This document shows positions 86 to 15,237 of a DNA stretch of 46,906 nucleotides, piece by piece. The position numbers were made by a program, and so were the translations under genes. The notes below the pieces were generated by a model that saw only the letters and a program-made list of their open reading frames with translations, searched no databases and was not told where the DNA came from. The stretch comes from an uncultured Desulfobacteraceae bacterium (GTDB lineage: Bacteria; Desulfobacterota; Desulfobacteria; Desulfobacterales; Desulfatirhabdiaceae). The stretch spans positions 1 through 46,906 of the forward strand of contig CAJBLH010000262.1 in NCBI GenBank assembly GCA_903953895.1, in the 5' to 3' direction. The stretch's first letter is position 1. Each line of letters starts with the position of its first letter.

Positions 86-192
86 CTATAGACTTTCAGA
101 AAATTCATTTCGCAAGGCAGCAGGGAGGAGACTATACTGTAGTATGTCTCCGACCGATAACGCCGCGAAATTATTTTTCTGAAAGTCTATAG
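86..192. repeat. 107-bp palindromic MITE-like element, copy A
   Basis: The outer ends are perfect 18-bp inverted repeats, CTATAGACTTTCAGAAAA at 86-103 and its complement at 175-192. Inside are a second complementary pair (ATTTCGC near 107-113 with GCGAAAT at 165-171) and a central hairpin (GGAGAC near 125-132 with GTCTCC near 146-151). The reverse complement of this copy matches copy B (12833-12939) over its full 107 bp with only a few changes. It encodes nothing. Its right end overlaps the stop codon of the next gene. A non-autonomous mobile element is the likeliest identity; no transposase is in the window. Confidence 0.85.
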
Positions 193-1215
193 AAAAAAGT
201 ACCCGAACAGCAAGCCCAATATGGCGATAAAAAGAATGATCAGCAGAAACCCGGTCTGCATCGGCTTTTTTTCATCGGATTTCGGCAGATCTCCCAGGAT
301 GAACGCATCCGGAGATGTGACGCAGACACCGCGACGCACATCAACGATCCGGCTGCCATGTACCACCAGATGCGAGAGCTCCGTGTGCGGACCGGTGGCG
401 GTTCCGGGCAGCAGCACCGACGCTTCGATCAGATCCGTATCGTTGATCAGGCAGAAGGGGCCGATAACGGCATTCGGCCCGATCGTACCGCTGCCGTCGA
501 TACGGCTGTGATGACCGATCAGCACCGGGGCAATGAGCTTTATCTGCGGGGAAATCGTGACATGGTCGTCGATCCAGATGCCGTCCTCCCGCCGGGAAGC
601 CGATATGCGCATGCCGGGCCAGGATTCATCCAGAATGAAACGTTGAGCGGCCAGGTATTCATCAAGGGTTGTCAGCAGGCGACTTCGTATGCCGCTGCGG
701 AGCGGCTTTTTTTGGCTGTTTCTCAGAAAATCGAGCAGCCGGTAATAATCGGTATTTCCCTCGGATTGTTCGGCTGCCTGCAGGATGTCGGCGTCCGCCA
801 CAAAGAGTGCTGGCTCCCCTGTGTTTCCGGAAACAATCGGCAATGATCCGGTTGATGCGTCAGCCTTGATTTCGGCAAAATCACCTGATAGCATCAAGTT
901 GGCGGGCACACAGCAGATCGGCCCCGTGATTCCGATAAACGCAGCGGTCAACTGAACGGACAGCGGAAGATTTTCATCGGCGGCCAGCACCTGAATCTCG
1001 GCGCCCCAGCGTTCGCCGGTACCGAAATATCGTTCGACCGCTGCCGGGTCATCTTCCACCAGCAGGCATATGTCGCGGATACCTGCAGAAACGAAATATT
1101 CCACCAGATGTTCGGCCAGCGGCTTTCCGGCGACCGGAATCAGGAAATCAGGTGTCAGATATCGGAGTGCGCGCAATCCTGATGCCTGTTGATATGGAAT
1201 AATGGCAGCTTTCAT
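187..1215 (-). CDS. Nucleotidyltransferase-like protein with left-handed beta-helix and C-terminal membrane anchor; probably not catalytic
   Basis: 342 aa with the layout of sugar-1-phosphate nucleotidyltransferases (GlmU/RmlA type). An N-terminal Rossmann-like half is followed by hexapeptide repeats (about 225-300) and a hydrophobic helix at the extreme C terminus (about 322-342). The N terminus keeps the family outline (IPVAGKPL), but the glycine-rich GxGTRL nucleotide-binding loop is replaced by ASGLRALRYL, and the lysine of the usual PKP motif is replaced (TPDF). Catalysis therefore looks doubtful, and a membrane-tethered scaffold or sugar-nucleotide sensor is possible. It is the last gene of the minus-strand polysaccharide block, 4 bp after the WecG-STAS gene. 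The last codon and the TAG stop lie inside the palindromic element at 86-192, so the native C terminus may have been altered by its insertion. Confidence 0.75.
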   Translation of the reverse strand: MKAAIIPYQQASGLRALRYLTPDFLIPVAGKPLAEHLVEYFVSAGIRDICLLVEDDPAAVERYFGTGERWGAEIQVLAADENLPLSVQLTAAFIGITGPICCVPANLMLSGDFAEIKADASTGSLPIVSGNTGEPALFVADADILQAAEQSEGNTDYYRLLDFLRNSQKKPLRSGIRSRLLTTLDEYLAAQRFILDESWPGMRISASRREDGIWIDDHVTISPQIKLIAPVLIGHHSRIDGSGTIGPNAVIGPFCLINDTDLIEASVLLPGTATGPHTELSHLVVHGSRIVDVRRGVCVTSPDAFILGDLPKSDEKKPMQTGFLLIILFIAILGLLFGYFFL

Positions 1216-1219: not shown

Positions 1220-2752
1220 TCACCGGTTCAAAACCATTGGATCATCCGTGATGGTAAAAAGGTGTTCCAGACGGGTCAGACGCAGCAATTGCCGCACCTG
1301 ATCCGTGGGCGCGCAGAGGATGCAGGAGTTGCCATGAGCCATGACGTTCCGCTGAATCCTGATGAACAGCACCAGACCGGAACTGTCCATAAAATTGAGC
1401 ATATGCAAATCGATTATGCAGTTGCGACCCGAAACAGCCTCACTTATCGCCGATAGATCAAGGCTTTTCAGGGAAAAGGCATCGAGACGTCCGGTGATCG
1501 TGACGATGGCCGTACCGTCTTTTTTGTATGTAACCAGTTTGGATCGACGCAAATTCAAGGAATCCAGATACTGCCTGGCTAACTGGATGTCCTCAAAAAT
1601 TTTGTCTCCGAGCAGATCATTCAGGCGGCTCAAGGCAAATGTCCGACGGACATCGTCATTCATGCCGGCCACCACCAGTATTTTATTGAGTTTCAGCGCC
1701 ATGCGCCACATTTCGACAATGAAACCAAGGCCTGCAGAATCCACGAAAGCCACTGGCGTGAAATCAAGGATCAGTGCCGGTTTATCCTGCCACTGCGATT
1801 CGGTATTACCGCGAAGATTTCGCACGGCCAGAGCATCAAGGCGCATCGGAAGCGTCATCGTAAGGTTCTCTGATTCAGAAGATACCTGCTGCGGGTCTGG
1901 CGGCGGCGCCTGATTTTCGGGCCACTGACGGGCGATACGCTTTCGCTGCCGGCGGTAATCCATCACTGCCGGCCAGAGCTGTACGCCAAACGTCTTAAAT
2001 GCCTTAAGATAGCGCCGCCAGAGCCGTAACGGTTCGACAGCCAGGCGCCAGAGCCATTCCAGCCCGATTCCGTGCAGAAATTGAGGCGCTCGACTGACAT
2101 CCCCGGCAATGAATGCGAAGGTCCCCCCGACGCCGATAGACACCGGAACTTTGAGGCGGGTGACGTTTCGCCGGAACCAGAGTTCCTGCTTGGGGTTGCC
2201 AAAGGCGATCAGCAGAATATCCGGGGCTGCGGCATTTACCACCGAAACGATTTCGGCATCTGTTTCTTCAAAAAATTCAAGGTGATCCCCCTCGGTATAA
2301 ACCATGGGGGAAAGAATGCCGGCGATCTTGAGATTCGGGTTACGCTGCTTCAAAATATCAGCGGCCCGCTCGGCGGTATTGGCCTGTCCGCCCAGAAAAA
2401 AGAGCGAAAATCCTTCCTTTGCCGCCCGTGTCGCCAGGGCAGGCACTATGTCAGCGCCGGTGACGCGTTCCGGCAGCGGATTATCCAGCAGCCGCGACAG
2501 CCAGACAATCGGCATGCCGTCCGCAGTCACCAGATCGGCCCGCCGCAGGATATCCAGCAGCTCGGAATGGCGGATCTGGCTTAACTGTTTGCCGAGCGTT
2601 TGTACGATGAAATCTACATTGACGGTGGCCACCTGCTTGGGTAGCCCGTCCTGCCGGTATTCGGCCACCATGTTCACAATTTTGTCGATGGCCTGGGACA
2701 ATGTCAGGCTGTCGATGGGTATCCCCAAAATGACTACAGAGTCTCGCTGCAT
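1220..2752 (-). CDS. WecG/TagA/CpsF glycosyltransferase fused to two STAS domains
   Basis: 510 aa from the ATG at 2752, which follows the upstream TGA by one base and has a purine-rich GGAAAGGGGG site. A TTG 21 bp upstream is less likely. Residues about 5-245 are a GT26 domain: TADGMP (76-81), GNPKQELW (185-192), GVGGTFAFIAG (207-217) and GLEWLWRL..EP. This family adds a UDP-linked sugar, typically N-acetylmannosaminuronic acid or N-acetylmannosamine, to undecaprenyl-diphosphate glycans at the inner membrane. After a proline-rich linker come two STAS domains (about 295-395 and 404-505). Each keeps the Asp-Ser pair used for phosphorylation in SpoIIAA/RsbV (DSAGLG, Ser339; DSSGL, Ser457). WecG proteins normally stop near 250 aa, so the STAS half is an addition. 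The RsbW-like kinase, free STAS protein and SpoIIE-type phosphatase at 20.9-23.1 kb are the obvious candidate regulators; that link is inferred. Confidence 0.9.
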   Translation of the reverse strand: MQRDSVVILGIPIDSLTLSQAIDKIVNMVAEYRQDGLPKQVATVNVDFIVQTLGKQLSQIRHSELLDILRRADLVTADGMPIVWLSRLLDNPLPERVTGADIVPALATRAAKEGFSLFFLGGQANTAERAADILKQRNPNLKIAGILSPMVYTEGDHLEFFEETDAEIVSVVNAAAPDILLIAFGNPKQELWFRRNVTRLKVPVSIGVGGTFAFIAGDVSRAPQFLHGIGLEWLWRLAVEPLRLWRRYLKAFKTFGVQLWPAVMDYRRQRKRIARQWPENQAPPPDPQQVSSESENLTMTLPMRLDALAVRNLRGNTESQWQDKPALILDFTPVAFVDSAGLGFIVEMWRMALKLNKILVVAGMNDDVRRTFALSRLNDLLGDKIFEDIQLARQYLDSLNLRRSKLVTYKKDGTAIVTITGRLDAFSLKSLDLSAISEAVSGRNCIIDLHMLNFMDSSGLVLFIRIQRNVMAHGNSCILCAPTDQVRQLLRLTRLEHLFTITDDPMVLNR

Positions 2753-2753: not shown

Positions 2754-3476
2754 TCAGTACGCCCCCTTTCCAAACAGTACCGCCGGAATTGTTTTCAATA
2801 GCAGCACGATATCAAGCCAGAAGGAGCGGCTTTCCACATAACGGGAATCCAGCCGCACCTGTCCGGCAAAATCGATATTGCTGCGTCCGCTGACCTGCCA
2901 GATGCAGGTAATACCAGGAACGGCATCCAGACGCCGGCGATCGTCGAGGGTATATTCGGCAACCTCTCTGGGGATGGCGGGTCGCGGCCCCACCAGGGAC
3001 ATGTCCCCCTTGAATACATTCCACAATTGCGGCAGTTCATCGATGGATGTTTTTCGGATAAATGCCCCGACCCGTGTGATCCGCGGGTCTTTTTTGATCT
3101 TGAAGATAACGCCGGCCTGGGATTCATTCTGATCTTTCAGCTCGTTGAACAAGGCTTCGGCATTGGTGACCATCGAACGGAATTTATACATCTTGAACGG
3201 TTTGCCCCAGCGGCCCACACGTGTCTGCGCAAAAAAAGGGGAGCCGGGAGACTCAATCCGGATCACCAGTGCAATCAGCAATAAAAATGGCAGCAGCAGC
3301 AGCAACATTATCCCGGAAACGCCGATATCCAGACCCCGCTTGGCCAGTTCGGCCCCGCCGACCACCGTTTGCCAGGCCATTCTCTTGTGCAGAAAATAGA
3401 GCCGCTGCCAGAAGCTGTCGCGGGCATAGGTTCGGTAAAGGGTTTCAAACAGCTCCTGATCTTTCAATGCGCTCAT
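2754..3476 (-). CDS. Bacterial sugar transferase (undecaprenyl-phosphate glycosyl-1-phosphate transferase)
   Basis: 240 aa, the short monotopic type of polyprenyl-phosphate phosphoglycosyl transferase (PglC-like core). It moves a sugar-1-phosphate from a nucleotide sugar to undecaprenyl phosphate and so starts the repeat unit. One hydrophobic segment (about 52-73) is followed by KMYKFRSM (95-102), the catalytic Asp-Glu pair in DELPQLWNV (146-154), GDMSLVGPRP (157-166) and PGIT-WQVSGR. The extra membrane helices of WcaJ/WbaP are absent; instead there is an N-terminal extension of about 45 residues. The start overlaps the upstream GT2 stop by 4 bp (ATGA). Its position just before the WecG-type enzyme fits first-sugar then second-sugar steps. 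The sugar cannot be deduced. Confidence 0.92.
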   Translation of the reverse strand: MSALKDQELFETLYRTYARDSFWQRLYFLHKRMAWQTVVGGAELAKRGLDIGVSGIMLLLLLPFLLLIALVIRIESPGSPFFAQTRVGRWGKPFKMYKFRSMVTNAEALFNELKDQNESQAGVIFKIKKDPRITRVGAFIRKTSIDELPQLWNVFKGDMSLVGPRPAIPREVAEYTLDDRRRLDAVPGITCIWQVSGRSNIDFAGQVRLDSRYVESRSFWLDIVLLLKTIPAVLFGKGAY

Positions 3477-4465
3477 GATGACCTCCGATTCACTACCGGC
3501 CCCATTCGTGGCGACAGCAAAAAACGCAGCATGCCGAAAAACTGGGGATAAACGACAAACGATGCATGAAGGGCATACGCCAGAGCCATGCCGAAACTTA
3601 TGTGGCAGCGCCGCATGGTGGCCGGAATACGAGCCATGGGCCTAAGAACCACGATACCCGCCGTTATCAGCGCCATGGCCGGGTGACCCAGCAGTCCCCC
3701 GACCCCGATGATCAAAAGCGGCAGCAGGACAGCCGCAGAGATTCTGAAAAATTCGCGCAACCAGAGTTTTTCCGTAGTCCGCAGATAGCGCAGGCAAATT
3801 TGTGCATATGCATGGCCGCTGCGGAAGGCGCGCTTCCAGTACTGGGCAAAGCGTGTCATGTTCAGCTCATGCAGGGTCATGTCGGCGGTCGTCCGCCAGA
3901 TGACCCATCCCTGTTGTCGCAGGCGGCAGCTCAGGTCGGGTTCTTCACCCGCCACCAGAAGGTCGTCGAACCCGCCGATGGCTGTCAGCGGCTGCCGTCT
4001 GGCCAGAAAGTCTCCCCCGAAATAGCGGCACGGCCCCTGCTCATAAAACCACTCCACCGAAGCGATCCGGTGATAGAGATTCAAATCCGGACGCCGTTCG
4101 CTGCGTTTGCCGCAGACCGCCACGATGGTTTCGTTAAAACAGGGCAGGGCGGCTTTCAGCCAGTCGGGGTGCAGGATCGTATCGGCATCCAGAAACTGGA
4201 TGAAAGGCGCAGTCGCCACAAGCATGCCTGCATTTCGGCCTCTGCCGGGGGTCGGGTGCGGGTGGTCGAGGCGGATCACGCGGATGCCGGCCTCCTGACC
4301 GATGTCTGGGCTCCGGTCTCTGGAGCCGCCATCCACATAGATGATATTGAGCAATTCCTGAGGATAATCCGCCGCACGGATCGATGCAATGCAGTCGTTT
4401 AGATAGCGTTCGACATTGATGCCGATGATAACGATATCGATTGAAGGCAGGGAATCAGGCGTCAT
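3473..4465 (-). CDS. Family 2 glycosyltransferase with C-terminal membrane helices
   Basis: 330 aa from the ATG at 4465, which overlaps the end of the upstream gene by 11 bp; an ATG at 4489 is the alternative. The GT-A fold is clear: an N-terminal strand (SIDIVIIGINVERYL), the nucleotide-binding YVDGGSRD, the metal-binding LDADT and an acceptor-side region GEEPDLSCRLRQQGW. Two or three hydrophobic stretches in the last 100 residues (AAVLLPLLIIGVGGLLG and following) suggest membrane anchoring beside the lipid-linked substrate. It probably extends the exopolysaccharide repeat unit. Donor and linkage cannot be read from the sequence. Confidence 0.88.
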   Translation of the reverse strand: MTPDSLPSIDIVIIGINVERYLNDCIASIRAADYPQELLNIIYVDGGSRDRSPDIGQEAGIRVIRLDHPHPTPGRGRNAGMLVATAPFIQFLDADTILHPDWLKAALPCFNETIVAVCGKRSERRPDLNLYHRIASVEWFYEQGPCRYFGGDFLARRQPLTAIGGFDDLLVAGEEPDLSCRLRQQGWVIWRTTADMTLHELNMTRFAQYWKRAFRSGHAYAQICLRYLRTTEKLWLREFFRISAAVLLPLLIIGVGGLLGHPAMALITAGIVVLRPMARIPATMRRCHISFGMALAYALHASFVVYPQFFGMLRFLLSPRMGPVVNRRSS

Positions 4466-6083
4466 GGCGATTTTCCGGTGATGCGTCATGCGGTTTCTTC
4501 GGAAAGACCCGGGCCGGAATGCCGACCGCCGTATGGTCGTCTGGCACATCGATCAGCACCACGGCATTGGCGCCGATATCCACATGGTTGCCGATGGTGA
4601 TTTTTCCCAGCACCTTGGCCCCGGCCCCGATGTTGACGTGATGGCCGATCTGTGGTGCGAAAAATTCGTCGATCCGTTTCAGGCCGACGGTTACACCGTT
4701 TCGAACAATGCAGTCGTCTCCGAACGCGGCAAATCCGCTGATGATGATATCACCGAAATGGTCGATCCGAAAGTTCCTGCCCACCGGCGCCTCACAGGGC
4801 AGTTCGATACCCGTCAGAATCTGGATGATCTTGTAGAAAAACTTGTAGAGAAGCGAGAACGGCTTCCGGATCAGACTACTGCCGATGGTGTAGCGCCAGC
4901 GGCCGAATCGGTAAACCAGCATGGCCCAGAACCCCTGCCGCCCCCAGTCTCGGAAATGGGTGCGGAAATCCCGGCGGATATGGGTGAAAAGATGCCGGTC
5001 ATCGTTGATGATCCGGTTTTCGAGGGCTTCGGGCGGAAGTCCGTCTGTACGCGTGTCGATCGGGGCCTCCAGGCTGGATTCCGGTGGCGGTGTCGGCATG
5101 CCGTTACCGGTCAGTTCTTTGCCGAATCCATCGTTTTTGAGGGTTGCAATGATCAGGGATATCGTCCGGTCGGCATCTCTACATTTAAGTCGGGCGGCCT
5201 CGCCTGGCATGAAGGTGTTTTTGATCCTGACAACGCCGTTCCAGAACAATTCCACGCCGGCGGCGCGCAAAACGGCGCACAGACCGTAGTTGGCACGGTA
5301 GTAGCGAAATTCGCTCTGGATGCGCAGATAAGTTAGTTGTCGGCCGGCCCGGGTGACCCGGCCGGTGGACTCCGAGCTTTGTCCGCCCAGGTGGATACAT
5401 CGGGCATGCGGATAAAAGACCACGGGCCAGCCGACCTTTGCCGCCAGCCGGCAGAACTCGATCTCTTCGAAATACAGAAAATAGCGCTTTTCGTTTAACA
5501 GGCCGATGGTGTCGATAACTTCACGCCGAATCAGAAAAAAGGCTCCCGGCACCCAGCCGACTGTTTTTTTGCTGGAATGGTCCCACCAACTGTAGTCGGG
5601 CCCGCCCAGAAAAGGCCATTTTCGGAATTTATCGGCAATTCCGGAAATGACCAGAAACTTGGTCCAGGCAGAGGGAAGCATCCGCGCCGACGGTTGCATC
5701 CGCTCATCCATCCCCACGAGCTTGACTCCAAGAATGCCCCACTTCGGGTGATCCGCCATGGCCTGGAGGGTGGTGGACAACGTGTCCGGAAAAAGATAGG
5801 CATCAGAGTTGAGCAGCAGCAGAAAGCGGCCTGCAGCTTCCCGCAGGCCGACGTTGTTGCCGCCGGCGAATCCCAGGTTTTTTTCGGACTTCAGCAGCGT
5901 CACCTGCGGAAATTCCGATGCCACCATCTCGGCCGAGTCGTCGGAGGAGGCGTTATCCACGACAATGACTTCCATGTCGAGGCCTTCACCGGATGTCAAC
6001 ACGCGATTCAGGCATTCGCGGGTGACATTCCGGGTGTTGAAACTGACGATAATGACGGAAAGCAGTTTCTCGGCTGGTTTCAT
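4455..6083 (-). CDS. Bifunctional GT2 glycosyltransferase / serine-acetyltransferase-like acyltransferase
   Basis: 542 aa joining two enzymes. Residues about 8-280 are a rhamnosyltransferase-like GT2: SVIIVSFNTRNV, VVDNASSDDS, NLGFAGGNNVGL, LLLNSDAYL and WVPGAFFLIRREV. A linker of about 80 residues follows. Residues about 365-535 then resemble serine acetyltransferases of the left-handed beta-helix class: a helical lead-in, FRIDHFGDIIISGFAAFGDD, VTVGLKR, and hexapeptide repeats ending in VGIPARVFPKK. The C-terminal half probably acetylates a sugar of the glycan rather than making O-acetylserine, given the operon. The gene overlaps the upstream GT2 by 4 bp and the downstream GT2 start by 11 bp. 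No stop or frameshift interrupts the join, so the fusion looks genuine. Confidence 0.88.
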   Translation of the reverse strand: MKPAEKLLSVIIVSFNTRNVTRECLNRVLTSGEGLDMEVIVVDNASSDDSAEMVASEFPQVTLLKSEKNLGFAGGNNVGLREAAGRFLLLLNSDAYLFPDTLSTTLQAMADHPKWGILGVKLVGMDERMQPSARMLPSAWTKFLVISGIADKFRKWPFLGGPDYSWWDHSSKKTVGWVPGAFFLIRREVIDTIGLLNEKRYFLYFEEIEFCRLAAKVGWPVVFYPHARCIHLGGQSSESTGRVTRAGRQLTYLRIQSEFRYYRANYGLCAVLRAAGVELFWNGVVRIKNTFMPGEAARLKCRDADRTISLIIATLKNDGFGKELTGNGMPTPPPESSLEAPIDTRTDGLPPEALENRIINDDRHLFTHIRRDFRTHFRDWGRQGFWAMLVYRFGRWRYTIGSSLIRKPFSLLYKFFYKIIQILTGIELPCEAPVGRNFRIDHFGDIIISGFAAFGDDCIVRNGVTVGLKRIDEFFAPQIGHHVNIGAGAKVLGKITIGNHVDIGANAVVLIDVPDDHTAVGIPARVFPKKPHDASPENRHDA

Positions 6084-6997
6084 GGATAGAGCCCTTTCGG
6101 CGGATCGGGTATCCGTTCCAGCCGTCTGCCCATCTTCAGCTTCTCGAACTGCCAGGCATGCAGCGACGCCCGGAATCCCCGCTCTTCAAAACGCGGCATA
6201 TTTTCCTTCATGGCTTTGAAATATCCGGCAATGATGCCCAGACCGCCGATGATGTAAGGCTTTTCAAGCATCCGGTAAAAACCCATCGGCAGGATATAGA
6301 AGGGATGGGTGCCCATGAAGTACTGGCCCCGGCCCCATCGCATCCGGCCGTGCCATATCCCCTTGTGGGACGAGCCCATCTGGCGTTTGTGAATGATGTC
6401 GAGTTTCGGGTTCCGGATGCTGCGGGTTCGCCACCCTTCGATGCGGGCTTTGTGGTAAGCAATGCCGTCCCAGTGGACCTGACGCACGAAACCATTGATG
6501 GCCTCGAAGCATTCCCGGCGATAGAAATTGACCATGCCGGCCACCATTTCATCACTGGTGCGCTCTTCCACCAGGCCTTCCGTTTCCTCGATGAAATGTT
6601 TACCGCTGGCCGAACCCAGATAGAGGTCTTTCTCGAAATACCCAATCAGGGTGGAGAAATAATCCGGCCCGATCTCGATGTCGCCATCCATTTTGCAGAT
6701 GTAATCGTAGTCGATGGTTTGAATCCGGTCATAGCCAAAATAAAAGGCGTTGACGACCCCCGGGCCCACGGCCCGTACTCCGCGATCCTTGCGTTGAACC
6801 ACCCGGATCCAGGGGTATTGCTGGGATGCTTTCTCGGCAATGGCAAAGGTGTTGTCGGTAGAGCCGTCATCCACCAGTATCCATTCCACCGGTCTGAGTT
6901 TCTGGGAAATGATGGAATCGATGGTTCCCTGGAGATACTGCGCCTCGTCCCGTACCGGGGCCACGATGACAATACGGCGATTGTTTATTGTACTCAA
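6080..6997 (-). CDS. Family 2 glycosyltransferase
   Basis: 305 aa, GT-A fold: VIVAPVRDEAQYL at the N terminus, WILVDDGSTDNT for nucleotide binding, and KMDGDIEI as the metal-binding DxD. A conserved acceptor region (FEAINGF, HWDGIAYHKARIEGW) follows. No strong membrane segment is present, so it is probably peripheral to the inner membrane. It starts within the stop of the GT4 gene at 6994 (4-bp overlap) and its own stop overlaps the next start by 4 bp, which indicates translational coupling in the block. Donor and acceptor sugars are unknown. Confidence 0.9.
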   Translation of the reverse strand: MSTINNRRIVIVAPVRDEAQYLQGTIDSIISQKLRPVEWILVDDGSTDNTFAIAEKASQQYPWIRVVQRKDRGVRAVGPGVVNAFYFGYDRIQTIDYDYICKMDGDIEIGPDYFSTLIGYFEKDLYLGSASGKHFIEETEGLVEERTSDEMVAGMVNFYRRECFEAINGFVRQVHWDGIAYHKARIEGWRTRSIRNPKLDIIHKRQMGSSHKGIWHGRMRWGRGQYFMGTHPFYILPMGFYRMLEKPYIIGGLGIIAGYFKAMKENMPRFEERGFRASLHAWQFEKLKMGRRLERIPDPPKGLYP

Positions 6998-8247
6998 TAT
7001 GACCTCCGTGAAAAAGTAGTCAGGTAATCAGTGATCAGTCGGTTGAATAATTCGGCAATCCGTTCGATGTTGAGCGATTCGGAAAACTCGCCGTCCGTCA
7101 GTGCCCGGCCGCCGGATATGCAGCGTTGCTGCAGTTGGGGGTCATCGAGCATTCGCGCGATCTGGACAGATAGATCATCGGCATCTCCCGGCTTGGCAAG
7201 CAGTCCGGATACGCCGTCTTGAATCAGCTCCGGAATGGCGGAGAGCGTGGTTGAAATTACCGGCACATCTGCAGCCATGGCCTCCATCAAAACGACCGGA
7301 ATGCCATCCATATCCCCGTTCTGGTCCGGTTTGCAGGCCAGAACAAAGATATCGAGGCCGGACAGCCATGCGGGAACCCGGTCGTTTGGGATCGGGCCGC
7401 AAAACCGGATTTTGTTGCTCAGCCCTTCACTGTCGGCACATGCTTGCAGTGCTTCCTGCATCGGGCCGGAGCCGGCAATCTCCAGGGTGAAATCCCTTCC
7501 CTGACGCGCCAGGTTGCCTGCCGCCCGTATCAGCACATCAACCCCTTTTTTTTCAACCAGGCGGCCGAGAGACCCGATTCTTGGAATGGCGCCATGCGGC
7601 CTGTCAGCCGGCGGAAGGTGTCTGGCTACTCCGCAACGGATGATTGATATTTTGTCTGCCGGTGCGCCGAGCCGCTCCAGGAAGAGCCGGTTGAATCGTG
7701 AAATCGTAACGGCGCAAAGAGACCGTTCAACTTTTTCCCGCAGTAGCCATCCCCTTTCAAAAAGATCGTTGGCGTGCGATGTAAAGCTGAAGCCGATGCC
7801 GGCCATTCGGGCGGCATACATGGCAATGTCGGTTGGTACATGGGCAAAATGGGCGTGCAGGTGGCGGCAGTTGTTGTTTTTAAGAATGCGTGCCAGTTGT
7901 GCGGCTGCCAGGAAACGATACGTCAGCCCGGCTGCATTGCGCGTGAATAATCCGGTGTTGAAAATGTCTGCAAGCCATAACCTGAATGCCGATGCCGTGC
8001 GGGCAGGGTGCAAAGTGGTCTGAGTCGCCAGTGCGCTAAGAAACGAGACGATGCCATGCTTGTAGAGATAAACTGTTTCCGTTTCCAGTCTCTTGGCATC
8101 CTGATCCAGGGCTGGAGCAGCCGGCTGATGCACCGAAATCGGCAGAACCTGAAAGCCGCGTTTTTTCAGGGCCAGAATTTCGTGGGTGACGAATGTGGCC
8201 GAAAGAGCCGGAATTTCAGGTGCCAGATAGGCGATGGCTGGTTTCAT
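6994..8247 (-). CDS. Family 4 glycosyltransferase (WcaL/EpsF-like)
   Basis: 417 aa GT-B enzyme. The N-terminal acceptor domain opens with IAYLAPEIPALSATFVTHEI, the style of colanic-acid WcaL-type transferases. The C-terminal donor domain has GSLGRLVEKKGVDVLIRA, the GSGPM loop, FCGPI, and the EX7E-like region around LMEAMAADVPVISTTLSAIPE. It retains the donor configuration and has no transmembrane helices. It overlaps its neighbours by 4 bp on both sides (8244-8247 and 6994-6997). It most likely adds one sugar to the exopolysaccharide repeat unit on the cytoplasmic face. Confidence 0.92.
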   Translation of the reverse strand: MKPAIAYLAPEIPALSATFVTHEILALKKRGFQVLPISVHQPAAPALDQDAKRLETETVYLYKHGIVSFLSALATQTTLHPARTASAFRLWLADIFNTGLFTRNAAGLTYRFLAAAQLARILKNNNCRHLHAHFAHVPTDIAMYAARMAGIGFSFTSHANDLFERGWLLREKVERSLCAVTISRFNRLFLERLGAPADKISIIRCGVARHLPPADRPHGAIPRIGSLGRLVEKKGVDVLIRAAGNLARQGRDFTLEIAGSGPMQEALQACADSEGLSNKIRFCGPIPNDRVPAWLSGLDIFVLACKPDQNGDMDGIPVVLMEAMAADVPVISTTLSAIPELIQDGVSGLLAKPGDADDLSVQIARMLDDPQLQQRCISGGRALTDGEFSESLNIERIAELFNRLITDYLTTFSRRSY

Positions 8248-9416
8248 GAATTCATCCTGGCAGCGCTGGCGATGATTTCCAGATAGCGGGAGACAAAGGC
8301 GCTGGCGGAAAATCGACGCTGATACACAGCATGTTGACGGGTCTGCAAATCGTTTCGTCTTTGGGAATTGCTCAGCAGCGGTGCAATCATTGCGGCAATC
8401 TGCTCTGGAGTGGCATCCTGTGGGATCACCGCTTCGGGTGTGTCCGGAAGGATTTCGCTTAAGGCCTCATACGCCAGCGCCATGACCGGAAGATTGCAGG
8501 CCATGGCCTCCACCAGGGTCATCCCGAAACTTTCCTCCAGCGATGTGTGCAGGTACAGATCGGCATTTGCCATCAACTTGAAGACAGCATCGCGTTCCAG
8601 CTTACCGTAGAAAGTGAAAAAATCATCCACCTGAAGCCTGGCGATTATTGTTGCGATCAGTATCCGTTCATCGGAATTCTCGGTTCCGACCAAAAGAAAG
8701 CGGCAGGGAAATCCGATCTCTTTCAGTGCTGATGCAAGAGACGGCAGCACGCGCTGATTTTTGCGTTGTTCCAGCGTGCCGACATTGATGATTGATGGAA
8801 TCCCTTCGGATTGCTGCTTCGGTATCGATAAGCCAGCAGGTTGAGATACGCCTGGATAAGCCAGTTGAATCCTGTTCTGCGGCGCGTCGGGCAAAATGTC
8901 GTGCAGCAGCTTTTCATTGCGACGCGAAACCGGTACAAGCAGGATACGGGGGTTGTTCAGCACCTTCTCCATTTTCCGGCGCAACCAGTTGATGGCAATG
9001 CCGTGTTTGGGCAAAAGCCCTGCATCAGAGAACTCATCCCAAGGCTTTGTCCAGAAATGACAGACCAGAAGGATCGGGCAGTCTCCGGCAACAGTGGACA
9101 GCGCGGCGTCAGCAGTAAGTACGTCATGAGCGATCACGGCATCGATATCACCGGCCTGGGAGGCAATGCGTCTGCTGATATTTTTGAGCGTTAACATGAG
9201 TTGGAGCAGGAAACCACCGGGGGATTTCGTGGCCTGCCAAAATCGTCGGGTTATGCGAAGAACAGAGCTTCGGTCGGGTAGTGCGGCATTTTTTGGCGTT
9301 ATCATCCGCACCGGGTATCCGGAGGCTTCAAGAAGATTGCGCAATTCATGGGCGACGGTGACCACTCCGTTTCTGTCGCGTTCCATATCCAGCAGCGTTG
9401 TCATCAATATTTTCAT
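8244..9416 (-). CDS. Family 4 glycosyltransferase
   Basis: 390 aa GT-B retaining glycosyltransferase. It starts MKILMTTLLDMERDRNGVVTVA (first strand and glycine-containing loop), has a HDVLTADAAL segment, the hinge and donor domain start INVGTLEQRKNQ, then LVGTENS, FYGKLERDAVF and the signature EESFGMTLVEAMACNLPV. The second Glu of that signature contacts the nucleotide sugar in this family. Both ends share 4-bp overlaps with adjacent genes. It is probably a repeat-unit assembly enzyme; the sugar is not assignable. Confidence 0.92.
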   Translation of the reverse strand: MKILMTTLLDMERDRNGVVTVAHELRNLLEASGYPVRMITPKNAALPDRSSVLRITRRFWQATKSPGGFLLQLMLTLKNISRRIASQAGDIDAVIAHDVLTADAALSTVAGDCPILLVCHFWTKPWDEFSDAGLLPKHGIAINWLRRKMEKVLNNPRILLVPVSRRNEKLLHDILPDAPQNRIQLAYPGVSQPAGLSIPKQQSEGIPSIINVGTLEQRKNQRVLPSLASALKEIGFPCRFLLVGTENSDERILIATIIARLQVDDFFTFYGKLERDAVFKLMANADLYLHTSLEESFGMTLVEAMACNLPVMALAYEALSEILPDTPEAVIPQDATPEQIAAMIAPLLSNSQRRNDLQTRQHAVYQRRFSASAFVSRYLEIIASAARMNS

Positions 9417-10309
9417 GGGGCTGTCGCATTTCCCGGTTTGTGGTTGTCCGGCCGGACCATCCGTACTTTTTTTGCATAGGACCGATCGAAGGTAATGGAC
9501 AGATCATCGTTTAACAGCAGACCGCCGGCTGTTTTTCCCTGACCGTACAGACCCCAGTGCGCCTCACACAGGCCGACCCCATCAGGCCCCCAGTTTTTTT
9601 TCGCCTCCGCCGCCAGCCGGTCGTTCTGAAACAGCATGATGCCTGTATCATCGACCTTGACCGAAATGGTTACCCATGTTTTCATGGGAAATGGAATGGA
9701 CGAAAAACGGGTAAAATTCCCTTTCCCGAATTCGGGTACATGAAACAGCACCAGACAATCCTGACCATTCTCGTGGCCGAGGTTGACACCGAAGAGGTCT
9801 TTCCAGTCCAATTTATTGGAATAGGTGGCAAAGCTGATCCAGCCCCGTTGTGCAGAATGCGGCGGCAGGTCGGCCCACACGCTGAATGTGGAGGTGTAGC
9901 CGCCGCGATAACATTCCGGGAGCATAAAAACCGGGTATAGCCGATGGCTGTCTGCCGGCGGCGGAGATGGAGAGGTGATTTCACTTCTGAGGACAAAACC
10001 GTGTCCTGATCCGGTCGGGTCTGACACAATGGCGAGGGTGCCGCTGGGAACCCCCTCCATCCGCCACCAACTGTATTCTTCCAGATTTCCGGTTTCATGC
10101 ATCGCCTGCCAGAAGGGGGCGGCCGGCACGGAAGCAGCAGGCGCACCAACTGTGCGATCTTGCACGGAGTCGATCTCCCGGGCGGAAAAATCCTGCAGCA
10201 TCTCGCCGGCGGTATAGATTCCGGCCGCCGAGATGAGCAGGATCGACAGTAATTTAAAAATGAATTTAGGCGTTATCCGCACGATGATTCTTCGCTGAAT
10301 TAAAGACAT
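9413..10309 (-). CDS. Membrane-anchored or exported protein of unknown function, possibly with a lectin-like fold
   Basis: 298 aa from the ATG at 10309; a TTG at 10351 would add 14 residues. An N-terminal basic stretch followed by FIFKLLSILLISAAGIYTAG suggests a signal anchor, with the rest in the periplasm. The body is rich in Trp, Gly and beta-strand-like segments (YSWWRMEGVPSGTLAIV, YTSTFSVWADLPPHSAQRGWISFATYSN, KTWVTISVKVD, MLFQNDRLAAEAKK), an order that resembles concanavalin-like carbohydrate-binding modules. That fold call is tentative. As the first gene of the minus-strand glycosyltransferase block, coupled by a 4-bp overlap to the GT4, it may bind or modify the finished polymer. No catalytic motif was recognised. 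Confidence 0.7.
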   Translation of the reverse strand: MSLIQRRIIVRITPKFIFKLLSILLISAAGIYTAGEMLQDFSAREIDSVQDRTVGAPAASVPAAPFWQAMHETGNLEEYSWWRMEGVPSGTLAIVSDPTGSGHGFVLRSEITSPSPPPADSHRLYPVFMLPECYRGGYTSTFSVWADLPPHSAQRGWISFATYSNKLDWKDLFGVNLGHENGQDCLVLFHVPEFGKGNFTRFSSIPFPMKTWVTISVKVDDTGIMLFQNDRLAAEAKKNWGPDGVGLCEAHWGLYGQGKTAGGLLLNDDLSITFDRSYAKKVRMVRPDNHKPGNATAP

Positions 10310-10324
10310 TCTATAGTCGTTGCT

Positions 10325-10351
10325 TTTATAACAGTAACTTTTTGAAGTCAA
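10325..10351 (-). promoter_or_regulatory. Candidate sigma-70 promoter for the minus-strand glycosyltransferase block
   Basis: Read on the minus strand, TTGACT (10351-10346) is followed after 15 bp by TATAAA (10330-10325), about 15 bp upstream of the ATG at 10309. The hexamers are good but the spacer is short, the leader would be very short, and no clear ribosome-binding site precedes the ATG. It sits in the divergent gap facing the flippase gene. Confidence 0.35.
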
Positions 10352-10478
10352 TCATTTGTATCCCGTCACATCGCCCCCCCCGGTTGGGATCGGTGATCCT
10401 GCCGGGACCGGCAGAAAAATCTGGTGTCAAACATCTGTTGACAGATTATCGTTTGGGGTGATAATTCGTATCGATACA

Positions 10479-11837
10479 ATGATCCGGAATATAAACAAAT
10501 CGCTGAAAAAACGTGTCTTGCACGCCGGCGCCTGGACGTTGATCGGATACGGTGTCAGTCAGGCGCTCCGGCTGGGCAGCAATCTGATCATGACCCGCCT
10601 GCTGGTTCCGGAAATGTTCGGGGTCATGGCAATCGCCAATATCATCCTCTACGGGCTGGCGCTGTTTTCCGATTTTGGGCTGGGCCAAAGCATCATCCAG
10701 AGCCGTCGCGGGGAAGAGCCCATTTTTCTGAATACCGCCTGGGTCGTCCAGATTCTGCGGGGCGCTGTTCTGTGTGTCGTTGCCTTGTTGATCGCCCTGG
10801 GGCTTTATATTGCCGACACATACCATCTTCTGCCGCCCGACAGCGTCTATGCCCATCCTTCTTTGCCAGCCATTGTTCTTGCATTGGCGTTTTCGCCGCT
10901 GATTTCAGGATTCGAGTCCAACAAACTGGCCCTGGCCCGACGCAAAATCGAACTGGGGGTTGTCACCCAGGTCGAACTGGTCAGCCAGTTTGCAGCCCTT
11001 TGCAGCATGCTTGGCTGGGCCATGATCGACCGATCGATCTGGGCGCTGGTGACAGGCGCGCTGGTTTCGGTGGGGGTGCGGGTGATCCTCAGCCATGTGA
11101 TGTTAAGTGGTCCAAAAAACGGGCTGGCCTGGGATCGCGAATGCTTTCGGGAAATTATCGGCTACGGAAAGTGGGTATTCCTTTCTTCGATCCTCGGTTT
11201 CCTGCTGGCCAGCGGCGACCGGCTGATGCTGGGGGGGCTGGTTGACGCCAAAATACTTGGCCTCTATTCCATCGCCTACATGATGGTATCATCCATCCAG
11301 CAGGTGATGGGGAAGTTGATCGACAACATCTCGTTTCCGTTATTGAGTGAAGTGATCCGCAACAAACCGGAGGATGTACGCAGCAAATATTACAAACTGC
11401 GAATGCCGGTCGATATCGTTCTGCTCCTCTTGACCGGAATCCTGTTCTTTTCCGGCCATGTGATCATCGATCTTCTCTATGACGGCCGCTATACAACGGC
11501 GGGCCCGATGCTCGAGATACTGTCTCTGGCGCTGTTCGAGAACCGTTTCGGAGTTACCGGTCAGTACTATATGGCCCGTGGTGTTCCGCGGGTGCTGATC
11601 CCTTTGATCGGCAGCAGAATACCGCCCCTGTATATCCTGTTGCCGATTGCATTCAAATACTACGGATTCGACGGCGCGCTGTGGGTGATTGCAACCAATG
11701 CATTTTTCAGCATCCCCGTTACCTATTACTATAAAAAAATAAACGGCATCCTCGATATCAAGCGTGAACTCATGGTTCTGCCGGCGCTTCCGGCAGGGGC
11801 GCTGATCGGCAAAGGGATCGCCATGCTGCTGGGTTGA
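10479..11837 (+). CDS. Wzx-type lipid-linked oligosaccharide flippase
   Basis: 452 aa from the ATG at 10479; the reading frame is open further upstream but that part lies in the intergenic region. It is a polytopic membrane protein of the MOP/polysaccharide-transport family with many hydrophobic segments. Family landmarks are the N-terminal GAWTLIGYGVSQALRLGSNLIMTRLL, FSDFGLGQSIIQ, and SGDRLMLGGLVDAKILGLYSIAY in the middle. It flips undecaprenyl-diphosphate-linked repeat units to the periplasm, where the Wzy-like protein (16322-17677) can polymerise them. It is on the plus strand, divergent from the glycosyltransferase block and followed 60 bp later by a GT2 gene, so this small pair is transcribed separately. 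Confidence 0.92.
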   Translation: MIRNINKSLKKRVLHAGAWTLIGYGVSQALRLGSNLIMTRLLVPEMFGVMAIANIILYGLALFSDFGLGQSIIQSRRGEEPIFLNTAWVVQILRGAVLCVVALLIALGLYIADTYHLLPPDSVYAHPSLPAIVLALAFSPLISGFESNKLALARRKIELGVVTQVELVSQFAALCSMLGWAMIDRSIWALVTGALVSVGVRVILSHVMLSGPKNGLAWDRECFREIIGYGKWVFLSSILGFLLASGDRLMLGGLVDAKILGLYSIAYMMVSSIQQVMGKLIDNISFPLLSEVIRNKPEDVRSKYYKLRMPVDIVLLLLTGILFFSGHVIIDLLYDGRYTTAGPMLEILSLALFENRFGVTGQYYMARGVPRVLIPLIGSRIPPLYILLPIAFKYYGFDGALWVIATNAFFSIPVTYYYKKINGILDIKRELMVLPALPAGALIGKGIAMLLG

Positions 11838-11847
11838 TCGCTTTGTC

Positions 11848-11876
11848 CTATAGACCTTCAGAAAATTCATTTCGCA
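11848..11876. repeat. Truncated end of the palindromic element (copy C)
   Basis: These 29 bp match one end of copy A (86-114) with one change, and the complement of copy B's right end (12911-12939) at 28 of 29 positions. Similarity stops at 11876, and the ribosome-binding site AGGAGA of the next gene follows at once. With copy B it encloses the GT2 gene between inverted ends. Confidence 0.85.
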
Positions 11877-11897
11877 TTCCGACATGAGGAGAAAGCA

Positions 11898-12830
11898 GTG
11901 TCCAACTTGAAGGGTATATTGCATCCTACTGCCAGTGTAGTCATTCCTGTTTATAATACATCGAAGTATCTTGAAAAAGCGGTTGATTCCGTTCTGAAAC
12001 AGACTTTTACCGATTTTGAGATACTGCTGCTCGATGACGGCAGCACCGACGGATCATCCGCGATTCTGGACCGGTACCCGCTGACGGATAGCCGATGCAG
12101 GGTTTATCACTGGCCTAACAGAGGGATTATCGCAACACGAAATGAGGGCAACCGGCTGGCAAAGGCAGATATTCTTTTTCTGATGGATTCCGATGATATC
12201 TGCACGCCCGATCGTTTTGCAAAGCAGATGGCGTATCTGCTTGAAAACCCGGACTGTGTTGCCGTTGGCTCTCGAATGCTGCTGATCGATTCGGAAGATA
12301 TGCCCATCACCGTAATGGGAAGCAGCTTCAGTCATGATGAAATCGATTCGACCAATATTTCCGGGATCGATGCCGCTTTTTTCCAGCCGACGGTGGCCGT
12401 CCGAAAATCTGCGATGGAGCAGGTGGGTGGTTACCGTGCAGAATATCCCAGCGCCGAAGATTTCGATTTGTTTCTGCGTCTGGCCGAGATCGGCAATCTG
12501 GCCAATCTGCCGGATGTGCTGCTGAAATACCGGCAACACCTCTCCAGTATCGGTTACCGGCAGGGGAACCAGCAGGCCGATTCCGCCAGGCGCGCCATCC
12601 AGGATGCCTGCCGCCGCAGAGGGCTCGACTGCCCGGTTCCGGAAGCCCGCAGAGAACCGGCGCCGGATCAACGCAATGAACCGGCGGGTGCCTACACCAA
12701 ATGGGCATGGTGGGCGTTGAAGGCGGGCTATCTGCCGACAGCCCGGAAATACACCTGGATGGCCATGATGAAGCGTCCCTTCAGCATGGAAGTATGGAGG
12801 CTCTGTGCGTGTGTGTTGAGAGGGCGCTGA
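11898..12830 (+). CDS. Family 2 glycosyltransferase (plus-strand, between element ends)
   Basis: 310 aa from the GTG at 11898, with a good AGGAGA site 8 bp upstream. GT-A fold with SVVIPVYNTSKYLEKAVDSVL, LLLDDGSTDGSS, the metal site LMDSDDIC, and a late acceptor motif PSAEDFDLFLRLAEIG. The last about 50 residues have moderate hydrophobicity but no clear membrane helix. It probably adds a sugar to the repeat unit. The gene lies between copy C (22 bp upstream) and copy B (2 bp after the stop) of the palindromic element, and runs opposite to the neighbouring glycosyltransferase block. This placement suggests it may have arrived as a passenger of the element. Confidence 0.9.
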   Translation: MSNLKGILHPTASVVIPVYNTSKYLEKAVDSVLKQTFTDFEILLLDDGSTDGSSAILDRYPLTDSRCRVYHWPNRGIIATRNEGNRLAKADILFLMDSDDICTPDRFAKQMAYLLENPDCVAVGSRMLLIDSEDMPITVMGSSFSHDEIDSTNISGIDAAFFQPTVAVRKSAMEQVGGYRAEYPSAEDFDLFLRLAEIGNLANLPDVLLKYRQHLSSIGYRQGNQQADSARRAIQDACRRRGLDCPVPEARREPAPDQRNEPAGAYTKWAWWALKAGYLPTARKYTWMAMMKRPFSMEVWRLCACVLRGR

Positions 12831-12832
12831 TT

Positions 12833-12939
12833 CTATAGACCTTCAGAAAAATAATTTCGCGGCGTTATCGGTCGGAGATATACTACAGTATGATCTCCTC
12901 CCTGCTGCCTTGCGAAATGAATTTTCTGAAGGTCTATAA
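12833..12939. repeat. 107-bp palindromic MITE-like element, copy B (inverted relative to copy A)
   Basis: Ends CTATAGACCTTCAGAAAA (12833-12850) and its complement (12922-12939, one mismatch at the last base). It aligns end to end with the reverse complement of copy A. The differences fall mainly as pairs that keep base pairing: T to C in the left arm with A to G in the right arm, and C to T with G to A in the central hairpin (GGAGAT/ATCTCC here, GGAGAC/GTCTCC in A). It sits 2 bp after the GT2 stop and could form a strong hairpin at the end of that transcript. Confidence 0.88.
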
Positions 12940-12982
12940 TAAACGCCTTGCAACCCTTGCCGGGTTTGCCAACACAATTTTT

Positions 12983-13017
12983 CCCCCCTCCCGACCTCCC
13001 CCCGCCGGGGGGAGGAG
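12983..13017. repeat. GC-rich dispersed palindromic repeat (REP-like)
   Basis: A 35-bp C-rich then G-rich sequence with a 9-bp perfect stem (CCTCCCCCC at 12995-13003 with GGGGGGAGG at 13007-13015) and a 3-base loop. Its reverse complement recurs at 23373-23407 with two substitutions. It lies between the convergent GT2 and beta-helix genes. Confidence 0.8.
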
Positions 13018-13037
13018 GAGGATTGCACGATAAGGGC

Positions 13038-14516
13038 CTACTGCTGCACCGAGTGAAGATCGAAACCGGAGATGGACTGCCAGTCGGCCAGAGAGCCGGC
13101 TGCAGCCTCCCATTTACCGGCAGCGGTGAATGGAAAACGGCAGAAATTGTAGTCGATGAGCGTGTAGGACGTTACGGGAAGTGGATAGCTGAAGCAGCTC
13201 CAGTCGATGCTTCCGCCAGAGTATGCAATCACGTTTCCACTACTGGTGTGTCCGGCGCCTTCGCCGCCAAGGACAATTGCCGTCCGGTTTGTTGGGCTGG
13301 ATAACCGGATGAAGTTGTTGCGAACGGTAACGCGGTTCATAACGGTATCTTCAGCCCCCCGGTTCCGATCCGGAACGGCGATGGCCGTGGTCGTAAAACT
13401 GTTTTCCTGGAGAATCTGGTTTCCTTCGATCAAACAGTCGGTACAGGCGTTCACCCCAATCCCGATGTTTCCCATATTTTTGATAATATTTCCCCGGATT
13501 ACCAGTCCAGGAAACCCTTCCGGACTCTCGTAGGCCGTATCCACGGCGATTCCCCAGCAGGCCTGACTCGCCATGCCCACTTCTTCGTACACGACGTTCC
13601 GCTCGATCATCAGGCTCTGATGTTTGCCGTGAACAATCAGCGAAACACCCTGACAGGTGTTGCCGACCACGGACGACCGGGACAGGATATTGCCGCTGAT
13701 CCGCCCGCCCTTGCTTTCCACGGCCCCATCCCAGTAAAGATTATGATAATAGGCAATATCGCGGTATCCGTTGTTTTCGAAAATATTGTTCTGGATAACG
13801 CAATCATCGCAGCTTCCCTCGAATCCCTGACTGGCATTGTCGAGAATCTGGGAGTTTTTCAGGGTTATCCGCTCATTTCGGGCGTTGCTCCCCGGATTGG
13901 GCAGGTTGCTCCCCTGAATGAGTACGCCGATATCAAAACGGCTGATAATCAGATTGCTCAGAATCACATCATCGATGTCATTGAAGAAAAAGAACCCGGT
14001 GCCCGTGCCGTCGGTACCCCGGACATCAAGATTTGAGATGACATACCCTTCCTCATGATCGGCGTTGCCGCTGTCTGTGAAGGAAAATGCCGTCCCAGCA
14101 GCCGGGCAGGTGACAATGGCTCGATCCGTACAGCTCGTTTCCCAGTCGGGGGCGTAGTCGGTCACGGTGCATGGGTTTTCTGCCGTACAGCGAGGGTTTT
14201 CCCAATCATGTCCGATTAGGGTAAAAGCACCTCCCCGGCATAAAGCGATCGTGTCTCCGGCCGACAGTCCGGCGAACGCCAGGCGTGCCTTTTCAATCGT
14301 TTTCCAGGGGGTTGCCGGAGACGTTCCAGTGGCGTCGTCATTGCCGGCAATGCATGCCGCATTGGCGCCAGGGCCGCAGTCGCAGGCAAAGTACGTGGTG
14401 CCGGCGGTGTTGTCGAGGGTGTGGCCGTAACTCACTGAGGGTATCATCACAACCATGCTGATAAAAAAAATCACATCCGATATGGCAGGATATGAATTAT
14501 TCAAAATTCCTTTCAA
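13038..14516 (-). CDS. Secreted right-handed parallel beta-helix protein
   Basis: 492 aa from a TTG at 14516, chosen because a strong GGAGGT lies 8 bp upstream. An N-terminal signal peptide (hydrophobic DVIFFISMVVMIP, likely cut after SYG near residue 31) points to export. The mature part is a beta-helix of the pectate-lyase/NosD fold, built from short strand repeats with regular Asn and Ile positions (VISNLDVRG, VILSNLIISR, ITLKNSQILDN, CVIQNNIFENNGY, RISGNILSR, LVIRGNIIKNMG, CLIEGNQIL, VTVRNNFIRL). Such proteins in polysaccharide loci are often lyases, epimerases or polymer-binding surface proteins. No catalytic set was identified, so activity is open. It is the last gene of the export block. 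Confidence 0.82.
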   Translation of the reverse strand: MKGILNNSYPAISDVIFFISMVVMIPSVSYGHTLDNTAGTTYFACDCGPGANAACIAGNDDATGTSPATPWKTIEKARLAFAGLSAGDTIALCRGGAFTLIGHDWENPRCTAENPCTVTDYAPDWETSCTDRAIVTCPAAGTAFSFTDSGNADHEEGYVISNLDVRGTDGTGTGFFFFNDIDDVILSNLIISRFDIGVLIQGSNLPNPGSNARNERITLKNSQILDNASQGFEGSCDDCVIQNNIFENNGYRDIAYYHNLYWDGAVESKGGRISGNILSRSSVVGNTCQGVSLIVHGKHQSLMIERNVVYEEVGMASQACWGIAVDTAYESPEGFPGLVIRGNIIKNMGNIGIGVNACTDCLIEGNQILQENSFTTTAIAVPDRNRGAEDTVMNRVTVRNNFIRLSSPTNRTAIVLGGEGAGHTSSGNVIAYSGGSIDWSCFSYPLPVTSYTLIDYNFCRFPFTAAGKWEAAAGSLADWQSISGFDLHSVQQ

Positions 14517-15218: not shown

Positions 15219-15237
15219 AGGCAATTAAGAAAAAAAA

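Follow-up and report, generated by a model that had tools for sequence, protein, structure and literature searches.

The stretch of DNA analysed here, called the window throughout, comprises the 46,906 nucleotides of contig CAJBLH010000262.1 from an uncultured Desulfobacteraceae bacterium, one contig of a 315-contig genome assembly. Near its left end, a minus-strand open reading frame (ORF) with an ATG at 2752 and a stop at 1220 codes for a protein in which a GT26 glycosyltransferase of the WecG/TagA family is joined to two STAS domains, a type of domain that serves as an on/off protein switch in other systems; an upstream TTG is an alternative start and would lengthen the ORF to 2773. This fusion is the subject of the present study. 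Its parts are given below; genomes and loci are designated by G and L numbers, respectively.

1220..2752, minus strand: GT26 WecG/TagA-family glycosyltransferase with two C-terminal STAS domains (510 amino acids, P0001)
2009..2752, minus strand: GT26 catalytic domain and TagA-type C-terminal appendage, residues 1-248 (TagA alignment, fold match)
1622..1855, minus strand: STAS1, residues 300-377, with the acceptor-type Ser339 (Pfam, alignment, fold match)
1247..1534, minus strand: STAS2, residues 407-502, with the acceptor-type Ser457 (Pfam, alignment, fold match)

Domain architecture of the fusion

Pfam places PF03808 (Glyco_tran_WecG) at residues 72-248 (whole-protein E-value 2.6e-58; 197 bits versus a cut-off of 27.4) and the best stretches of STAS_2 and STAS at residues 300-377 and 407-502, respectively, with each of the two models matching two stretches. 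The NCBIfam family TIGR00377, 'anti-sigma factor antagonist', likewise matches two stretches above its cut-off (87.1 versus 53.45 bits). The linker between the two halves (residues 273-300) contains five prolines among its 28 residues, and the acceptor-type motifs are DSAGL for Ser339 and DSSGL for Ser457. An earlier note, made from the letters of the window alone, had described a WecG domain, a proline-rich linker and two STAS domains carrying Ser339 and Ser457, and this architecture is borne out by Pfam, NCBIfam and the motifs, with the addition that the gene lies on the minus strand, which had been left unstated.

When genome contigs were scanned for the window protein, 31 loci were obtained, 25 of which code for a full-length two-STAS protein that was aligned with that of the window. 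In a sample of 395 genomes from the phylum of the window, 66 match at an E-value of 1e-30 and nine, including the window genome, carry the full two-STAS form. Together with seven new proteins from this sample, 33 distinct full-length two-STAS proteins were available (the fusion of G311 has the same coordinates as that of L017). The earlier note had allowed for an assembly error, and such an error, or a chance joining of two genes, is ruled out by these homologues: a genome of the same genus (L010) also carries the fusion, with 75% identity, and some of the 32 additional full-length proteins come from records that are not labelled as metagenome-assembled genomes (MAGs), namely Pseudomaricurvus alkylphenolicus, Candidatus Litorirhabdus singularis and NOR5-3. 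No observation in favour of an artefact was found, and we regard its probability as negligible.

As the earlier note had supposed, no description of a GT26-STAS fusion was found in our literature searches, while domain-architecture databases may already list this layout. A precedent for the joining of a STAS domain to a glycosyltransferase is all4160 of Anabaena, named in a review as a glycosyltransferase; the STAS domain is N-terminal there, whereas it is C-terminal here (PMC8256260).

The GT26 half retains the TagA catalytic residues

A phmmer search against the PDB matched the GT26 half to TagA (7MPK, E-value 4.1e-37), and in this alignment T43, D78, R236, R243 and R246 of the fusion correspond to T37, D65, R214, R221 and R224 of TagA, all of which are discussed in a study of TagA (PMC6493773). 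In an AlphaFold2 model of the fusion (26 sequences; mean predicted local distance difference test score 86, predicted template modelling score 0.85), the GT26 half superimposes on TagA 5wfg with a Z-score of 26.8 over 194 residues at 1.5 Å. The fusion shares its fold, the catalytic residues and a three-arginine C-terminal appendage with TagA of Thermoanaerobacter italicus (PDB 5WB4/5WFG/7MPK), whereas the solved TagA chains (195-244 amino acids) are without STAS domains. The WecG domain had been called intact, and it is so as far as PF03808, the catalytic Thr and Asp and the appendage arginines are concerned. The GT26 half retains the TagA catalytic residues, and its predicted activity is sugar transfer to a polyprenyl-diphosphate-linked acceptor. 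According to the TagA study, the appendage is required for catalysis and membrane binding, the proposal being that it folds on the membrane and completes the active site (PMC6493773).

The two STAS domains are conserved unequally

In the predicted model, STAS1 superimposes on SpoIIAA (1th8_B; Z-score 16.6, 113 residues, 2.3 Å) and STAS2 on RsbV (6m36_H; Z-score 14.4, 100 residues, 2.2 Å). Helices 339-354 and 457-471 start at Ser339 and Ser457, respectively, and both serines occupy the SpoIIAA/RsbV phosphorylation position. Across the 33 aligned two-STAS proteins, a Ser/Thr is found at position 457 in 32 and at position 339 in 20; the acceptor is kept in STAS2 alone in 12 proteins and in STAS1 alone in none. 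Ranked by entropy among the 209 columns of the STAS half (33 proteins, uncorrected for kinship), position 457 comes 4th and position 339 comes 49th. The two phosphorylatable serines that had been noted as a pair are both present in acceptor-type motifs but differ in conservation, and equal roles for them are rejected, as Ser457 is conserved and Ser339 is often lost. Similarly, in fusions from the phylum of the Victivallales genome G052, which we take to be Verrucomicrobiota in GTDB, the C-terminal STAS domain tends to have the Asp-Ser motif and the first one tends not to, as judged by eye. Of three fusions from the phylum of the Parachlamydiales genome G064, one has Ser and two have Asn at the corresponding place, and the Victivallales fusion L024 has lost both acceptors.

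Linkage to genes for an RsbW-type kinase and a SpoIIE-type phosphatase

Genes for a serine kinase, a further STAS protein and a PP2C-type phosphatase are found together at positions 20931-23091 of the window, next to a gene for a hybrid histidine kinase, which could provide the input to the REC domain of the phosphatase.

20931..21392, minus strand: RsbW/SpoIIAB-type serine kinase (HATPase_c_2, Pfam)
21349..21681, minus strand: lone STAS protein, RsbV/SypA-like, motif DSSGM; overlaps the kinase ORF and is a rival substrate
21817..23091, minus strand: REC-SpoIIE (PP2C-type) phosphatase (Pfam)
23487..26843, plus strand: CHASE-GAF-PAS hybrid histidine kinase with REC (Pfam)

The kinase and the phosphatase to which the earlier note had pointed are real genes, with ORFs at 20931-21392 and 21817-23091. 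Kinases near the fusions keep an N-box-like Glu/Asn stretch and the phosphatases keep Asp-containing motifs, which presumably have the roles that they have in the known proteins. Partner switching of this kind is known mainly as sigma-factor control. The window has in common with RsbV/RsbW and SpoIIAA/SpoIIAB the STAS fold, the position of the serine, an RsbW-type kinase and a SpoIIE-type phosphatase; it differs in that the STAS-bearing protein is an enzyme and in that a Pfam scan of 30 window proteins found no sigma factor. The suggestion that the switch works without a sigma factor agrees with this for the window. An extracytoplasmic function (ECF) sigma factor gene lies 1.1 kb beyond the kinase gene of L020, and a sigma factor may be an output there.

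A close parallel in gene content is the SypA/SypE system of Vibrio fischeri, in which a STAS protein and a serine kinase/phosphatase control a polysaccharide locus below the level of transcription, with the unphosphorylated STAS protein as the active form (PMC10120452). The window likewise has a lone STAS protein, a serine kinase and a SpoIIE-type phosphatase at a polysaccharide locus. SypA is a separate lone STAS protein of 105 amino acids with an unknown target (PMC10120452, PMC4517449), whereas the STAS domains studied here are part of an enzyme. SypA belongs to what these sources present as a growing set of systems in which single-domain STAS proteins have other, often unknown activities (PMC11112999, PMC10120452). 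The partner-switching genes hmpUVW of Nostoc punctiforme, which are connected with hormogonium motility and a polysaccharide locus, code for separate proteins, and no enzyme fusion is mentioned in the part of the source used here, unlike the arrangement in the window (PMC8256260).

To quantify the linkage, kinases matching PF13581 were counted, with matches listed down to an E-value of about 5e-5, so that weaker kinases could be missed. Of the 32 genomes with full-length fusions, 17 encode such a kinase on the fusion contig, at most 26 kb away (G000, G038, G040, G042, G046, G048, G049, G050, G053, G054, G197, G245, G268, G269, G291, G312 and G425), a count that leaves out L009, the source of the 33rd protein. 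In the sample of the window phylum, a kinase is linked in eight of nine fusion genomes and, within 30 kb, at none of 39 plain GT26 loci (Fisher p 2.4e-8); a search with our own kinase profile in 10-kb flanks gave 7 of 34 fusion loci versus 0 of 39 controls (p 0.003), this profile having been built from kinases beside fusions, which makes the PF13581 count the independent one. Neither p-value takes kinship into account (three of the nine fusion genomes share one genus and two another), and control and fusion loci were not phylogenetically matched, with several fusion genomes from one genus and some contigs short. The phylum sample contains 59 unfused GT26 rows, of which 39 served as controls and 16 were left out; the long ORFs of the remaining four (L077, L080, L081) contain no kinase, SpoIIE or STAS gene. 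A SpoIIE gene is present at one of the 39 control loci, and the kinase result for G311 was taken from G045, which has identical fusion coordinates. The check for co-occurrence that the earlier note had called for places the fusions near RsbW/SpoIIE genes more often than plain GT26 genes, with a linked kinase at eight of nine versus none of 39 loci.

One might argue that the kinase and phosphatase of the window act only on the lone STAS protein, as in SypA/SypE, and that the fused STAS domains answer to a kinase encoded elsewhere or to none. The overlap of the lone STAS ORF with the kinase ORF fits this explanation, as do the recurrence of a block of SpoIIE, lone STAS, kinase and SLBB genes in L182, L183 and L184, where the kinase gene lies about 20-25 kb from the fusion, and the presence of at least 16 PF13581 matches across the genome G000. 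It is at odds with the loci L020, L021, L025, L026 and L076, where the kinase gene was not seen to have a lone STAS neighbour, and we judge it to be somewhat unlikely.

Compact operons and a second STAS-bearing transferase

In the gammaproteobacterial loci L020, L021, L025 and L026, the fusion gene is followed by a REC-SpoIIE gene and an RsbW-type kinase gene on the same strand and with short gaps; in L023, the contig ends within the REC-SpoIIE gene after the fusion. Between these three genes, none of the four loci has a lone STAS gene, and no STAS gene other than the fusion belongs to the operon; the fusion would be the obvious substrate of the kinase there. The view is limited in L021 and L025, whose contigs are only about 4 kb long, and further STAS genes are present at other places in the compact-operon genomes. 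Just upstream in L020 lie genes for a phosphonate-type binding protein and for a HAMP-PAS-PAS hybrid kinase with Hpt, and among the 14 proteins scanned in its 21-kb stretch, which leaves a few ORFs unscanned, the fusion is the only polysaccharide-related one.

A second STAS-bearing gene of L026, on the strand opposite to the fusion, codes for a 332-amino-acid protein with STAS at residues 52-115 and PF02397, the family of the initiating sugar transferases, at residues 139-325. The same layout was found by profile and phmmer in G048, G049, G051 and G053, and therefore in all five compact-operon genomes.

L026:10343-11338, minus strand: STAS-PF02397 fusion
L178:5043-6035: STAS-PF02397 fusion
L179:4752-5780: STAS-PF02397 fusion
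L180:4952-5974: STAS-PF02397 fusion
L181:1736-2719: STAS-PF02397 fusion

With STAS-PF02397 in five of five genomes, this group has STAS domains on two predicted enzymes, that of the first step and that of the second. The PF02397 protein of L022, the nearest sister of the compact-operon group in the tree, has no STAS match; the fusion of L022 (9998-12061, 688 amino acids) carries an extra C-terminal NUDIX domain. STAS-PF02397 as a general trait was rejected: 23 of 398 genomes from the phylum of the gammaproteobacterial genome G048 match at an E-value of 1e-40, and only G048 does so from residue 6, the other 22 matches starting at residue 103 or later, with the lack of STAS in the matching genomes read from these match coordinates.

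A STAS domain on the initiating transferase in five of five compact-operon genomes is also what an assembly scaffold would predict. The STAS pair of the fusion could then be a constitutive docking module, tethering the GT26 enzyme to the initiating transferase, the lone STAS protein or the export proteins and involving no phospho-switch. Ser339 is missing in 13 of the 33 proteins, and fusions with no kinase gene found nearby occur in Halieaceae-type and Victivallales genomes, the Victivallales form lacking both acceptors, all of which would suit such a module. The linkage to RsbW and SpoIIE genes and the conservation of Ser457, one of the strongest within the STAS half, argue against it, and we consider constitutive docking unlikely.

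A proposed switch on the second transferase

We propose that the fusion is a second-sugar transferase with a built-in tandem STAS switch, which is phospho-controlled at Ser457 and acts on membrane engagement, and we regard this proposal as evenly poised between right and wrong. The GT26 half would add the second sugar to the undecaprenyl-linked unit begun by the adjacent PF02397 transferase. Where an RsbW-type kinase and a REC-SpoIIE phosphatase are encoded, Ser457 of STAS2 could be reversibly phosphorylated, and the binding partner of the STAS half would change with it. Since the TagA-type appendage, with its part in membrane recruitment and active-site completion, precedes the STAS half, the switch would most likely permit or block the membrane engagement of the enzyme through phospho-dependent binding of the kinase or of another partner, with a presumed effect on catalysis. 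STAS1 would serve mainly for docking or as a structural part. The lone STAS protein of the window, encoded by the overlapping gene, probably competes for or shares the kinase, possibly as an antagonist or as a second substrate in parallel.

Besides the limits of the control loci and of our own kinase profile, several observations weigh against a built-in switch. The lone STAS gene at 21349-21681, which is absent from the earlier note, overlaps the kinase gene of the window, and its product is a more obvious substrate of this kinase than the fusion. Among the matches listed, no kinase was found near the fusion in 10 of the 32 genomes, namely eight Halieaceae-type genomes (G055-G062), G045 and G052; the contigs concerned measure 22-30 kb in three of the Halieaceae-type genomes, 53 kb in G045 and 43 kb in G052, and in five more fusion genomes (G039, G041, G044, G047 and G051) they are too short or cut to judge. 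Within 10 kb of the L009 fusion, genes for SpoIIE and for a lone STAS protein are present, and no kinase was found. The Halieaceae-type fusions retain the Ser/Thr of STAS2 with no local kinase found, and conservation of this residue therefore need not mean phosphorylation. Phosphorylation, and a gating of glycosyl transfer by the STAS half, are moreover what we infer from sequence. The built-in switch that the earlier note had suggested is consistent with the residues, the folds and the RsbW/SpoIIE linkage, and is weakened by the unequal serines, the rival lone STAS protein and the ten genomes without a kinase found.

Three loci (L073, L074 and L076) have a gene for a single REC-SpoIIE-RsbW protein within 2 kb of the fusion (assigned by Pfam for L073 and L076), which presumably resembles SypE. 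D78 is kept in all other 32 two-STAS proteins of the alignment, L076 (9178-13435, minus strand) being the exception: it has both STAS acceptors, whereas the TADG and NPKQE motifs are gone from its GT26 part. The L076 ORF overlaps that of a BacA/UppP-type undecaprenyl-pyrophosphate phosphatase, and the REC-SpoIIE-RsbW gene lies 1 kb away. A role of the GT26 part that does not involve catalysis, such as binding of the lipid carrier, is hinted at by this locus. One might speculate that the signal flows in reverse, with the GT26 part sensing a lipid-linked intermediate and the STAS half reporting to a kinase that controls another output. L076, with its lost GT26 motifs, its kept acceptors and its adjoining BacA-type and REC-SpoIIE-RsbW genes, would fit such a flow. 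The retention of D78 in all the other proteins speaks against it, as does the lack of a conserved output gene among the genes seen, where the ECF sigma factor gene near L020 was not looked for systematically elsewhere; we hold this reverse flow to be very unlikely.

The proposed switch can be extended, if tentatively and somewhat short of what we would call probable, to a GT26 subfamily over several phyla, in which phosphorylation of STAS2 would gate the second transferase. In some gammaproteobacteria, STAS-PF02397 would gate the first, which would bring both committed steps under a single pair of kinase and phosphatase. Applied to V. fischeri, this reasoning would make a membrane sugar transferase encoded in the syp locus, and not a transcription regulator, the target of SypA. 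If true, polysaccharide synthesis and the use of undecaprenyl phosphate would be under a rapid post-translational brake, and the synthesis of sugar chains may be controlled on the enzyme itself, not through gene expression. STAS domains on two consecutive enzymes would name undecaprenyl-linked sugar transferases as a target class for partner switching.

Distribution and phylogeny

Judged by record title, the 31 scan loci come from Desulfobacteraceae, Geobacteraceae, other 'Deltaproteobacteria', Gammaproteobacteria (including Haliea, NOR5-3, Litorirhabdus, Thiohalomonas, Contendobacter and Pseudomaricurvus) and Victivallales, and also from Marinimicrobia (a shorter match) and Parachlamydiales (an unfused one). 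At an E-value of 1e-60, matches, fused or not, were obtained in 37 of 194 genomes of the G052 phylum, 4 of 151 of the G064 phylum and 3 of 398 of the G048 phylum. A general occurrence of the fusion in the last of these was rejected, as only G048 matches over the whole length. Of 35 further loci from these three phyla, 21 have GT26 and at least one STAS domain by profile, three of them from the G064 phylum. Near the Halieaceae-type fusions, we noted genes for a haem-NO-binding (HNOB) protein (L033:13329-13964) and for a response regulator with a sigma-54-activator domain and a hybrid kinase with Hpt (L027:13870-17975). The G052-phylum sample also contains GT4-GT26 double glycosyltransferase fusions (L144:9044-11560, L145:9401-11242 and L154:9776-12163).

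In a tree of 115 GT26 domains, all 53 STAS-fused proteins fall into one clade of 71 rows together with four one-STAS and 14 unfused proteins (Shimodaira-Hasegawa-like approximate likelihood ratio test support 96), and the 39 control rows fall outside it. The trees were quick maximum-likelihood trees with this type of support only and with long branches for L076, L163 and L164; L015, L036, L038 and L039 (cut by contig ends), L086 (a repeat of L022) and, by choice, the full-length L013 were omitted. The one-STAS label is weak, as the profile matches of L035, L075 and L079 reach 26-28 bits and L078, without a match, was labelled from its alignment tail; Pfam found no STAS domain in L035. A STAS or RsbW gene lies within 10 kb of 7 of the 14 unfused clade members (L037, L144, L145, L149, L150, L171 and L177; the 14 include L077) versus none of the 39 controls (Fisher p 2.2e-5), where L149/L150 and L171/L177 are near-identical in the tree, leaving about five independent cases, nearly all of them from phyla other than those of the controls. 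A link of these genes with the clade is suggestive only. In L037, a Parachlamydiales MAG, a 695-amino-acid protein with REC, SpoIIE, RsbW-type and STAS parts (7214-9298, minus strand) is encoded 0.6 kb from the unfused GT26 gene.

The remaining genes of the window

The fusion gene lies within a polysaccharide locus, assigned by Pfam and NCBIfam.

187..1215, minus strand: nucleotidyltransferase/hexapeptide-like protein, directly after the fusion
2754..3476, minus strand: PF02397 initiating sugar transferase, the predicted enzyme of the preceding step, ending at the start of the fusion
3473..20934, mixed strands: rest of the polysaccharide locus, including glycosyltransferases (Pfam, NCBIfam)
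10356-11837: Wzx-like flippase
16322-17677: Wzy/ligase-like protein
17685-19931: Wzc-like protein of 748 amino acids, without a Pfam match; NCBIfam chain-length and tyrosine-autokinase families match below cut-off only
19921-20934: SLBB export protein

A match to the nucleotidyltransferase-like protein is also found after the fusion in L009, L011-L016 and L018. To the right of the hybrid kinase, the window contains genes for more histidine kinases, receiver proteins, a periplasmic binding protein, a type II secretion system F protein, a PilS-like kinase and a PMT_2 protein. Within the polysaccharide locus, positions 4455-6083 code in one frame for a GT2 glycosyltransferase with a C-terminal hexapeptide-repeat stretch.

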